This document shows positions 34,801 to 40,800 of a DNA stretch of 64,000 bases, one piece after another. The notes under the pieces were generated by a model that had not been told where the DNA came from, ran no database searches, and saw only the letters and a list, made by a program, of their open reading frames with translations. Both the position numbers and the translations under genes were made by a program. Location of the stretch: contig NC_091173.1 in NCBI RefSeq assembly GCF_040958095.1, positions 12,564,500 to 12,628,499 on the forward strand. Direction: 5' to 3'. The stretch's first letter is position 1; every line of letters begins with the position of its first letter. The stretch comes from Procambarus clarkii. Its lineage: Eukaryota > Arthropoda > Malacostraca > Decapoda > Cambaridae.

Positions 34801-37800
34801 ATCAACAATTGCACTCTACATCTTTCCAATACACTTGACATTCTCTTAGCCCTACAAGTTTGTCAGATTGTCAATTATTGCTAACTTAAATATAAATTTT
34901 CCCATTCATACCCCACCATCATTAAGCACCTTCATATAGGAGCAGGCACTACCACACATTCATCTAGTCCACTGACTGCATTTATGTTTATCTTATCTCT
35001 TCCTTTCATTATGCCAGCTAATTTCTTTCCCGACTCAATTTTCTCTAAGTTTGCTAGTACAAACTCATTTTGCCAATCACACATCTCAGATACAGTTGAC
35101 CAACTCCAATAACTCATCTCATACACTATGCTTTTGTGACTTAGCTGCAGCTGAAGACATGTTCCTCTGACTCAATTTTAAATTGAATCCCAAACCTGCC
35201 ACAAGGGGGGGAAACATTGCCCAGTTTAATATAAGGGCCATTTCTTTTATCATCATGTGAAGTGTTTTGAGTTGCAAACACAAAGAGACACCATTTGGAA
35301 GCAATTCCAACTTAAAAATAAAAGCAAAATAAACACAAACTTAAAATTCATAAGGGATGCCCCTACCAGGATTACTTAATAATGCTTATTTAAAAAATAT
35401 TTCTGAAATGGAAAATCAAATGAAAGTAAGCAATAAGCATTCACATAAGGAAAACAAAATAAAAAATTACCACAATAATCCTAAAGAAATTGGACAGACA
35501 AAAATTTATAAAGCATTCTATTTCTTGCAGTGTTGACCATCATAAAACAAAACTATACAAAACCATATAGTTAACCTCATGAAATTTGCTGGAAAAATTA
35601 AAACGTCTCACAGTTGCATAATCGAGCAAAATCAAAAGTAGTGTACTGTACATGTACCATATATAAAAACTACAAACCTAAACAAATTGAGTAGTGATTT
35701 CAAAAAGCATTCGGAGAGTTGAGCAGAATAAATACTGGAGACACGTGAACAAACACCAACACTGAACAACCGGGTAGCATATTACTGAAGCATTTATTAG
35801 GGCAAGCTACGTGAACACCCCGCTTGCACCACTACCTTTGACACTCCGTCGGGCCCCCTGTACATCCTCCATACATCCCAATCATCAGAGTACTGAATCA
35901 TGAACTCTGTCACATACTGCCTCGTATTCTGTTTGCCCTGAGTTGCTATACGAGTCACTTTCTGCCTCTCAGGCAATGCCACCTCAAGATACTGATAGTA
36001 GTTGTTCTGAGCAGCAGACCATGAAAAATCCTCTGAAAAACATTATTAAAAAAATTATATTTAAAAAAATGGGAGCAACAGCATGACTGTTACTAATGTA
36101 CAGATTTTTATTGACAGCTAGTAAAATAAAAGCAAATTTTAGAAGTTATAAATGCATCAGATACATTAATATGTATATTATTGTACATATTAATACAGAT
36201 ACAAAATACATTAAATAGAAGACAACTGATTAGTGTTTATTTTCCTCAAGAATAACTCATCAGTCAGTTCATAATCTGCAACACACAGATGTATATTTGC
36301 TCCACACTTTTCATCTTTTTCCATCATTAAATCCATTCTAAATAGTATATTTGGGGGAAGCCCTATGGTAGCTCTCTGTAACTATCTTAATGCGACTGCT
36401 TCAATCTACCAATCACATCAATTGCATGAGTTCATACGGTCTACCAGGAAACAGAGCCAAAACCTGGCCCCATCTCACATGAGGTGAAGGAAGCACATGA
36501 CAGTCCACCATTTCACCGGGAAATCATCCAGAAAGTCAGCGAAGCTTTAAAGACAACTGCTGGACTCGCAAGACTTTGAAAACCACTAAACTGTCAAATA
36601 ATTCCTAAACAAATACAAAATAAAATACACAAAACAAGCTAGAACACATTGGCAGCGAATGCTGCCACCAGGATGCCCCAAGCTAGGTCTAGTGTCAGGT
36701 AACAGTTCAGTTCATCCATCGATATGTAACCTCGAGCAATGCTGTAGTGCTCCTTTGTCACATCTTCTTGCACTAGTCCCTAAACTAAGGCTTCTAAGCT
36801 AAGTACTGTACTGGCCATCCTAGGACTCGTCCTGTTTGGCCATTTTTGCTAGTGCATCATTCCATTATAGTACTACTGTATTTGCTTCATGTGCATGTTT
36901 TTTCTCCGGTATTGTTGTGTGGACGTGGCTTTTTGTGCTCTGAACTGCATGTGCCCAGTGGTTATTTTCTTGGGTGTTCATGAGCACTGCCTTTGCACTG
37001 AGTTCATTCTCTGGTGTGTTCAGGGGTTCGTCCTTTTGAGGGCGGGTAATAGGGGTGGATTGGAACCAACCAATAGTGTTCCTGAAGTCATCATGAGCTC
37101 CTCTTTTTGGTGCTTCCCTCTGTGCCCTTAATAATAATATGGAGGAATTATGCCAATCCCCACTGACTATTCTTTCCGATGCCTCATTGCTAAGGCTACA
37201 ACAAAAATAGTCAGGAGACAGTCAACTTGTTAAAATCAAACCAGCTTGACTTTGGGATTTCCCAAGGCTGCAAAGTGGAAAAAGTCAGACAACTTTCTAA
37301 TACTTTTGTACAGTCTGTTGGCCGAGTGGTTATAGTACTGGACACGCCAAGGGACATGGAGGCCCTGGCTGACTGGGTTTGAATCCTTCAGGGGTCAAGA
37401 GTTTTCTGAGGTATGTTGGCTTGGGGGACCATTCAAGCTTGATGCATATATGTAGTATTGTATGTATGTATGTATGTACAGTATGTATATATGTATGTTT
37501 GAATGTATGTATATTTGTATCTTTTTAGTTCGTGCATATCCCACAATGTAAAAAACCAATATAATGTCTAATACAATACTGGTAATTATGCATGTTGAAA
37601 AAAAACAAAAAAACACAGCTACATGTGATAACTGAGTCTGTCTCCAACAAATGGCAGTGCAACAATATTTACAAGATCCAGATGCCAGTTATGAAGCCTG
37701 GTTGTACATCACATGATTTATAAACTTTTTTCTAGGTACCGGAATACTAGTTTATCATTGTAGATAACTGCTATATTTTACTCATTATTTATCAACTAAA

Positions 37801-40800
37801 TTAGCAAAAGAAATCAGAGGGTTAGCAAATGAAGTGCTGAATGAGTAGTGTATTTTCCTCTTCTAGAAAAATACAAAAAACATAAACTGCATGTATATAA
37901 ATTATCAGTCACTTTTAATTAACTCTTGTTTAATTTTCCTGTAGCACTTACCTTATTTTAAGAAGAATGAGGTTTGAATGACAAGTGTCCGGCTCTAACA
38001 TAAAGGATAAATTTGCATCAATAATAGCAAAACAATAAAAAAGAAAATAGTCTAATGGAAAAATTTCACAAGCACATGCTTCATATACCACTCACCCCAA
38101 CACTTCCATCAAAGCCTTTAACTATGGAGAACAGGGTCCCATCTCGTCCATATTCGATGGTGTATGCTGTTACATATTCATTTGATTCTTCTCGACCCTG
38201 GGTGGCAATGGCAGTTATGTTCATGGTATTGCCAAGATCCACCTCAAGGAATTGTGAGTAGTCAGCAGTTTTTGCTGTCCATGCAGTGGGTTCTGTCAGG
38301 AAGAAGCAGGGTATGGCTCATACTCAAAGCTACAGAAAACATGCAGCAAAAAACAAAAACAAAAATGCAATTAATAATAAATTGAGCTCTCTTAAAGGAA
38401 CATGCTCATGAACACACACAAAAACTTATAGAAGCTTCTACTGCATGCTGTGCATTTTTTTTTTATTAGGTTTTTGTTAGAATAACTGTGCCATATTGCA
38501 AAGCCTTGAGAGTGTTTATTATATTAGACACTTCATATACTTATTCAAAAATATATTAGCAATAACTGCTTGCTGTATGTGATGAGGTAAACGTGTTTTA
38601 ATGGGTAAAAATGCTAGATCTATTATATACCTAAATAATCTGTAAACAGCTATAAGCACTGGTTGATTACTAAATTGGGAATTGAGGTGGTACCTCCTCC
38701 CCATTCCCAAGCTACACACACCTGCACCGTGACACAATCAACTTCATGAAATAGGCTTCAGCTCAGCCTCAAGATCAAAACATTAAGTTAAACCTTCACT
38801 TCTTAAATTACTTGTTTATGTATGAAGCTTACTTAAAATGCAGTAAAATTCCTTTAGTGCCACTTGCACCAGTAACTTTGACCTTGTTATAAAATATGGG
38901 TAGATCTTGGTTTGACTGGCCATCTTTGTAAAATGTCTGGCCAAACTAGCAAACATGTTTGTAGATTAGAACCTGATGACATGTCTCAAAAATATGTAGT
39001 AATATAGTACAGTATACTCAAAATACTTATTACACCCATACTAGGTAAATATAATTTTAACAAAGTTACCAATAGTTTGAAAGTAATTCTAGTAATGGTA
39101 TGGGGCACATTTAATGTCACCTACTGAGCCAAGCCATATTTATGATTCCCATACATAAACACAATGTTTTCCATCCCTCCTGTGTTACTGCTTGGCAATG
39201 GTTTGGACTGCTGTTTCATGTATGACTTCATGGGCTCCTTGTACCTTAATTATACCTGGCCTGGGGCCAGACTTCACCTGTGAGAGCTTGGTCCAACAGG
39301 CTGTTTCTAGGAGCAGCCCGCAGGCCCACATACCAACTGCAGCTCAGTTATTCCGACACTTCTTGAAGAAAACTATTCGGTTTTATCTTGAAGGTGTTCT
39401 TTTGTTCAGGCAATATTTCTTGTATTCGTTGGGAGGATGTTGAACAACTGTGGACCTCTGATGTTCATAATGTTCCCCTGATTGTGACTATGGCACCTCT
39501 GTTCTTCACTAGTTCTATTCTGCATTTTCTTCCATATTGTGGCAGCAAGGCCACAAAAAAGCAGTGGAGCAAGGATTGTACCCTGAAGAACAGAGCTTTT
39601 CACTGTGCTTGCACTCAACTTTATTTGATTAAATGTTACTCTTTGCATTCCGTTTGACAGAAATTTGAATATCTATCATCCTACTTTGCATGTCTCACTT
39701 AGTAGACTTTCATTCCATGGTCACATTTATCAAATGCCACTGTGAAGTCCGGGCATACGACATCAGCATTATGTTTTTTTCTAATTATGCCTCAGTGATT
39801 TTATCATAGTGGTCAAGTAGCCACGAGAGGCATGATCTTTCCATTCTAAATCCATGATGACCTGGGTTGTGGAGGTCATTGGTCTTCATAAAACTGGAGC
39901 TCTGACTCCTGACCACTCTCTCAAAAACTGTACAGTACTTTTATTATGCGGGAAGTTAATGCAACTGGTCTATAATTCTTAGCCAATGCTTTTCTCCCTC
40001 CCATGTGTAGAGGAACTCTTTCTGCTGATTTAAGCGCATCTGGTATCTCCCCCGTGTCCAAGCTCTTACTCCACACTATACAAGTGCCTGTGGGACTTTT
40101 TTTTTTTTAATTTCTTTTATAAATATAGAATTTCACGAGTCTGGACCCAGGAATGAGTGCATGGGCATGTTGTCAATTTCTCTTTCAAGATCTGCAGCAT
40201 TCATGTTGATATTAGTTATATTTTCAGGGGTTTGGATATCATGCTAAAAGTGTTAGTGGGTTGAGTTGGTTTTCGAAGTTTTGGAAGACCCTATGGTATT
40301 AGTTAGTGCCTATGAACAACAGCTACAGTGCGGGCCAGTCCAGAATAAAAAAGAAATAATGTTGACAAAAATAGCCAAAAGGGTGCAGGCACTTAACACA
40401 ACAGAACGATGGATGGGAGACTAACCTAAATGATCTGTCAGGAGTATCCAGTACAGTAATTGTATTTTAACTCTATTTGAGAATGAATCCTAATGTTTCA
40501 ACAGTTTCTCTCCTAAATAGGTCATTCAATATGGCAAAATCAGTATTTATTTTTATTAAAGAAGCAAGAATTTTTTCTACATTTTAAAAGTGCTATCTAC
40601 CATATTTATATTTTATCTTTATTTTAATTTTATCTTTACTTTTAATTAAATTACTGCAGTAATTTCATTTCAAATTTTGTTTCCACAAATTAAATTCTAC
40701 CTCCACTACTCTGTGCTAAAGCACTTTTTGAACACTATATTCACCTAAATACTCTACGGCTATTTAAACTTTTAAGCCAAGTGTAGCAAATGCTATATAA

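Follow-up and report, generated by a model that had tools for sequence, protein, structure and literature searches.

The stretch of Procambarus clarkii DNA analysed here (64,000 nt, the window) carries on its minus strand a gene which, judged by its predicted domain architecture, is a member of the Neurexin IV/CASPR family. The gene model was assembled from stop-to-stop frames and splice sites chosen by eye, and the joints were then checked. Constitutive exon 2 (49141..49230, minus strand, 90 nt, phase 1 to 1, donor ATG/GTGAGT, with the slash marking the exon end) encodes the start of a discoidin domain, (D)YCEYPLL...ARLY + G, and constitutive exon 4 (32945..33086, minus strand, 142 nt, phase 0 to 1) encodes its end, AFPGNND...LEVYGCKY. 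The 19 coding exons numbered 5 to 23 (1651..31655, minus strand) specify, in order, two laminin G domains, an EGF domain, a fibrinogen-like region, a third laminin G domain, a second EGF domain, a fourth laminin G domain, a transmembrane segment and a tail ending in KKNMEMYI, with the stop codon at 1651. Two candidate alternative exons, designated A and B, lie between exons 2 and 4. Joined to either of them, the 21 constitutive exons give 1,244 residues with a single terminal stop; in the first codon of this frame a placeholder base stands for the missing exon 1, and no first exon was seen by eye among the frames of 49-64 kb.

Pfam matched the first 703 residues to PF00754 (F5/8C), two Laminin_G_2 stretches and EGF, and a second protein piece, from which exon 15 was omitted in the query, to two Laminin_G_2 stretches. 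The fibrinogen-like region (exons 12-15, between the first EGF and the third laminin G domain) had no Pfam match at 1e-3 in this query without exon 15, nor did the second EGF domain at the same threshold; the latter was detected through a match of the EGF domain of exon 11 to exon 18 (5e-8). Inspection by eye of the C-terminal part revealed a hydrophobic segment followed by a short tail, in which a 16-residue stretch past the hydrophobic segment presumably includes the 4.1-binding motif. Against the PDB, the rest of the extracellular part matched only neurexin-1-alpha chains (1e-60). Searches with exon B in viral contigs and with exon 21 in prokaryote and viral contigs found no relative, these collections containing no arthropod genomes as such.

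Several other features share the window. Intron 2 contains an intronless 294-codon stop-to-stop frame (42777-43661, minus strand) encoding an AASDHPPT-type 4'-phosphopantetheinyl transferase (PF22624, 3.3e-37; PF01648, 2.4e-17), possibly a retrogene nested in the Neurexin IV gene on the same strand, as well as a DDE_1 transposase fragment (45573-46085, plus strand, 1.3e-15). Upstream of exon 2 lie full-length matches to U1 snRNA (57955-58117, plus strand, 157.7 bits) and, at two sites, to U3 snoRNA (62684-62882 and 55360-55558, both minus strand). Two near-identical 206-codon frames in inverted orientation (14577-15197, minus strand, and 15241-15861, plus strand) lie in the intron that separates exon 16 from exon 17 and are perhaps a Penelope-like element; the plus-strand copy has a GIY-YIG match just below the curated cut-off and the minus-strand copy has none. 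A 135-bp repeat occurs in two copies that are 81% identical (39265-39399 and 61251-61385).

A tandem exon pair within the discoidin domain

Exon A (38096..38292, minus strand) and exon B (35836..36032, minus strand) encode the same middle part of the F5/8C discoidin domain. Each is 197 nt long, enters in phase 1 and leaves in phase 0, and is flanked by AG upstream and GT downstream; the intron between them (36033..38095, minus strand, 2,063 nt) has GT-AG ends of the U2 type. In that intron a tRNA-like A-box and B-box sequence, SINE-head-like by eye, is present at about 37319-37386 on the plus strand; ARAGORN predicted no tRNA in the window, and blastn found no second copy of the sequence there. 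Exon 2 ends at 49141 in ...TATG, and its last G is completed to a Glu codon by the AA that begins exon A or the AG that begins exon B. The two peptides align without a gap and are identical at 23/65 residues. In a message containing both exons the frame is closed by a stop at codon 26 of B, and in one containing neither it is closed at the fourth codon past the joint codon. The positions, lengths, phases, identity and joint codons, together with the loss of frame when both exons are included, had been given in a preliminary description of this DNA, and all were reproduced here.

When the A peptide was searched by tblastn against the window, exon B was found at E = 7e-12 and the next match had E = 3.0; the B peptide found exon A at 7e-12, followed by a match at E = 0.57. 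The ungapped BLOSUM62 score of 116 between the peptides was reached in none of 100,000 permutations (z = 10.8). No third copy of the exon was detected by tblastn in the window, and a search for further tandem exon duplicates in the gene at E 0.05 returned A with B and, apart from them, only repeats of the laminin G and EGF type matching one another (exons 6, 10 and 11). These genomic features are the marks of mutually exclusive exons, a reading which the sequence supports well and about which we have little doubt. The cell can probably fit Neurexin IV with either version of its outermost domain, one per working message. The preliminary description had interpreted the locus as an alternative-exon switch of the Drosophila nrx-IV kind, and of this the family assignment, from domain order, and the genomic marks of exclusivity, from the phases of the exons and the broken frames, are the parts upheld by the present evidence.

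That A and B might instead be alternative first exons of different promoters, with no splice switch between them, is scarcely credible. The same-strand, gene-like frame in intron 2 (43661-42777) and the failure to find a first exon would fit such an arrangement; against it, both exons have acceptors, start in phase 1 and complete a Glu codon with the G of exon 2, and no start codon is found at the beginning of either.

Splice sites and the proposed basis of exclusivity

Donors and acceptors were scored with a leave-one-out matrix derived from the gene's own sites other than those of A and B. Of 22 donors, that of exon B (AAG/GTAGTG) was the lowest at 0.84, the next lowest being 4.09, and the strong donor of exon A (GGG/GTGAGT) scored 9.4. 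Among 23 acceptors, the scores were 9.9 for B and 5.2 for A; since the matrix is small, only the rank of the B donor is telling. From the strong A donor and the weakest donor in the gene at B, we infer that A is the default exon and B the regulated one, in which case B would be used only with the help of an activator or when A is blocked.

Crowding of splice sites and incompatibility between U2 and U12 sites are rules by which exon pairs become exclusive. Steric exclusion is ruled out by the 2,063 nt that separate A from B, and no 5' site pattern of the U12 type was present in the five regions scanned. Competing RNA pairings were also considered and rejected: across six pairings of 500-nt flanks, the longest Watson-Crick/GU stems measured 13-17 nt, and none exceeded the best of 15 shuffles. 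Since both crowding and U2/U12 incompatibility are excluded, we infer by elimination that exclusivity is kept through a regulated splice choice together with decay of the wrong products, nonsense-mediated decay being the process that would clear messages with both exons or neither.

Maintenance of exon B as a coding exon

The weakness of its donor, the lowest-scoring of the 22, and the presence of VALP instead of the conserved VDLG might suggest that B is a decaying relic and that A is the sole exon in use. Including the G of exon 2, A and B are identical at 92/198 nucleotides, and their differences fall at codon positions 1, 2 and 3 in the numbers 31, 28 and 46. When neutral decay of A to equal divergence was simulated 5,000 times, under a model of uniform substitutions without indels, 5.8% of the sequences were still open and none retained the observed protein score. 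Codon usage did not discriminate (0.04 bits per codon for A and 0.08 for B). An open frame of exact length with no indel, the excess of third-position differences, the outcome of the simulated decays and an acceptor that ranks sixth best of 23 (9.9) all stand against a relic, which we regard as very improbable. The third-position excess and the absence of the observed score from all 5,000 neutral decays thus show that B is maintained by selection as a protein-coding exon.

Two predicted versions of the discoidin domain

The predicted domain comprises 143 residues, of which 30 come from exon 2, one is the joint Glu, 65 come from A or B and 47 from exon 4. Exons A and B therefore supply residues 32-96, which in alignments correspond to the central part of solved F5/8C domains, and the earlier statement that half of the discoidin domain is swapped was a fair one (65/143 residues). 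Exon 2 matched PF00754 at 3.2e-15 when joined to A and at 2.9e-13 when joined to B, and the whole domain with A did so at 1.6e-27. With exon 4 added, the best solved F5/8C-containing chain was found at 1e-36 (A) and 1.1e-39 (B), in both cases a factor V chain that contains two F5/8C domains. Vertebrate CASPR2 (CNTNAP2) belongs to the same family, and its discoidin domain (5y4m) could be aligned to residues 33-141 of 143 for the A version (1e-23) and 34-141 for the B version (2e-23). We know of no alternative version of the corresponding exon in CASPR2.

The two exons differ in character. Exon A keeps VDLG, carries one NIT sequon and has a pI of 4.2, whereas exon B has VALP in the place of VDLG, no sequon and a pI of 6.3. 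Two of the three loops that contact ligands presumably lie in the part of the F5/8C fold encoded by A or B. Different binding partners for the A and B isoforms are likely. Either exon contributes 65 central residues of the N-terminal discoidin domain, whose flanking portions are, like the remainder of the protein, shared by both predicted isoforms. Exon A retains the canonical core of the domain and exon B has drifted, so that the isoforms would most likely bind different partners, like the septate-junction and Wrapper-binding isoforms of the fly.

Motifs for STAR proteins

The KH protein HOW is reported to bind sites of the ACUAA type (PMC12868882). ACUAAY was not enriched in the three introns examined, where observed and expected counts were 8 and 8.1, 1 and 1.5, and 2 and 1.3; strict bipartite STAR sites numbered 3 against 6.0 expected, and no cluster of three (A/G/U)CUAAC motifs was present. 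Intron 2 contains one candidate regulatory cluster (40211..40307, minus strand), some 1.9 kb before exon A, with four ACUAAY motifs whose first bases all fall within 92 nt (40307-40216). A cluster of this kind was matched in 1/2,000 first-order shuffles of the 16-kb region, clusters having been sought post hoc. It is unique within the window on both strands, and no second copy of the surrounding region (40000-40700) was found in the window. Among other splicing-factor motifs counted, TGCATG, for example, has a raw count of six in intron 2 and one in A. The ACUAAY cluster may serve as a lead, and the evidence for control by HOW amounts to no more than a hint.

Age of the pair and its likely correspondence with the fly exons

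Over the exon, A and B are identical to each other at 23/65 residues and to CASPR2 at 22/62 and 19/62, respectively. Identities to discoidin domains of other proteins are of similar size, with 24/64 for A and factor V C2, 23/64 for B and factor V C2, and 23/56 for A and lactadherin. Against CASPR2 the constitutive controls varied widely, with 27/47 identical residues in exon 4 but no more than 7/30 in exon 2. All of the identities that involve A or B are thus at the floor of the fold, and by this comparison the two exons are as divergent as unrelated discoidin domains. In a FastTree tree of nine domains A and B were not grouped, although little was resolved (supports of 0.25 and 0.07 on their branches). 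Since the identities lie at the fold floor, the pair is undatable by identity, and the argument about its age is weakened accordingly. This level of divergence rules out a duplicate that is both young and slow to change; the duplication would be old, or one copy fast-changing.

In Drosophila, exons 3 and 4 of Nrx-IV are mutually exclusive, exon 3 being glial and building septate junctions and exon 4 being neuronal, and exon 3 is promoted by HOW, Prp40 and Cdk12, as reported in PMC11893892 and PMC10635556. These reports bear out the precedent that had been cited for the crayfish exons, namely neuronal and glial nrx-IV alternatives in the fly under HOW (PMC11893892, PMC10635556). The likeness lies in the membership of one family and the presence of a mutually exclusive pair, with isoforms of distinct adhesive properties described for the fly (PMC11893892, PMC10635556). 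The crayfish pair differs in being known from sequence alone and in lacking STAR-motif enrichment. The fly exons 3 and 4 are located in the discoidin domain. Taken together, these data suggest that A and B are a tandem-duplicated, mutually exclusive pair and the counterpart of Drosophila Nrx-IV exons 3 and 4, a reading to which we assign a probability of about 0.75. We regard a match with the fly exons as likely, on the grounds of the identity of the gene and of the place of the exons in the domain. Among the matches listed in a literature search, no title or beginning of an abstract reported such an exon pair outside flies.

A comparable case is the arthropod N-Cadherin gene, in which tandem pairs of 54-70 residues within an adhesion protein show like divergence and are common to insects and Daphnia; the fly pairs are reported to be 36, 47 and 50% identical and older than the insect-Daphnia split (PMC2655722). 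That system differs from the present one in concerning another gene, whose orthology is shown by a multi-species cluster. For the crayfish gene, nothing assigns either exon to a specific insect counterpart, and with saturated identities a fast-changing younger copy is conceivable, so that the mutually exclusive exons might have evolved in this line separately from those of insects, in the same position since the domain tolerates a swap there. However, 23/65 is far less similarity than a recent duplicate should show, a value at the level of A or B against the discoidin domains of other proteins, and we consider an independent origin unlikely.

Correspondence with the fly pair, our preferred reading, may be extended tentatively, and with more doubt than confidence, to a switch that is older than the insect-crustacean split and still run by a STAR protein, in which the four ACUAAY motifs and the weak B donor would together select one of two discoidin faces, a canonical, glycosylated one of the barrier type or a less acidic one that has diverged. 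If this were true, the choice between barrier and neuronal adhesion would be ancestral to pancrustaceans or older. Should both exons correspond to those of insects, the cell-type switch between septate-junction and neuronal adhesion would go back at least to the ancestor shared by insects and crustaceans, and the latter would offer a second system for HOW/STAR control of barrier formation.
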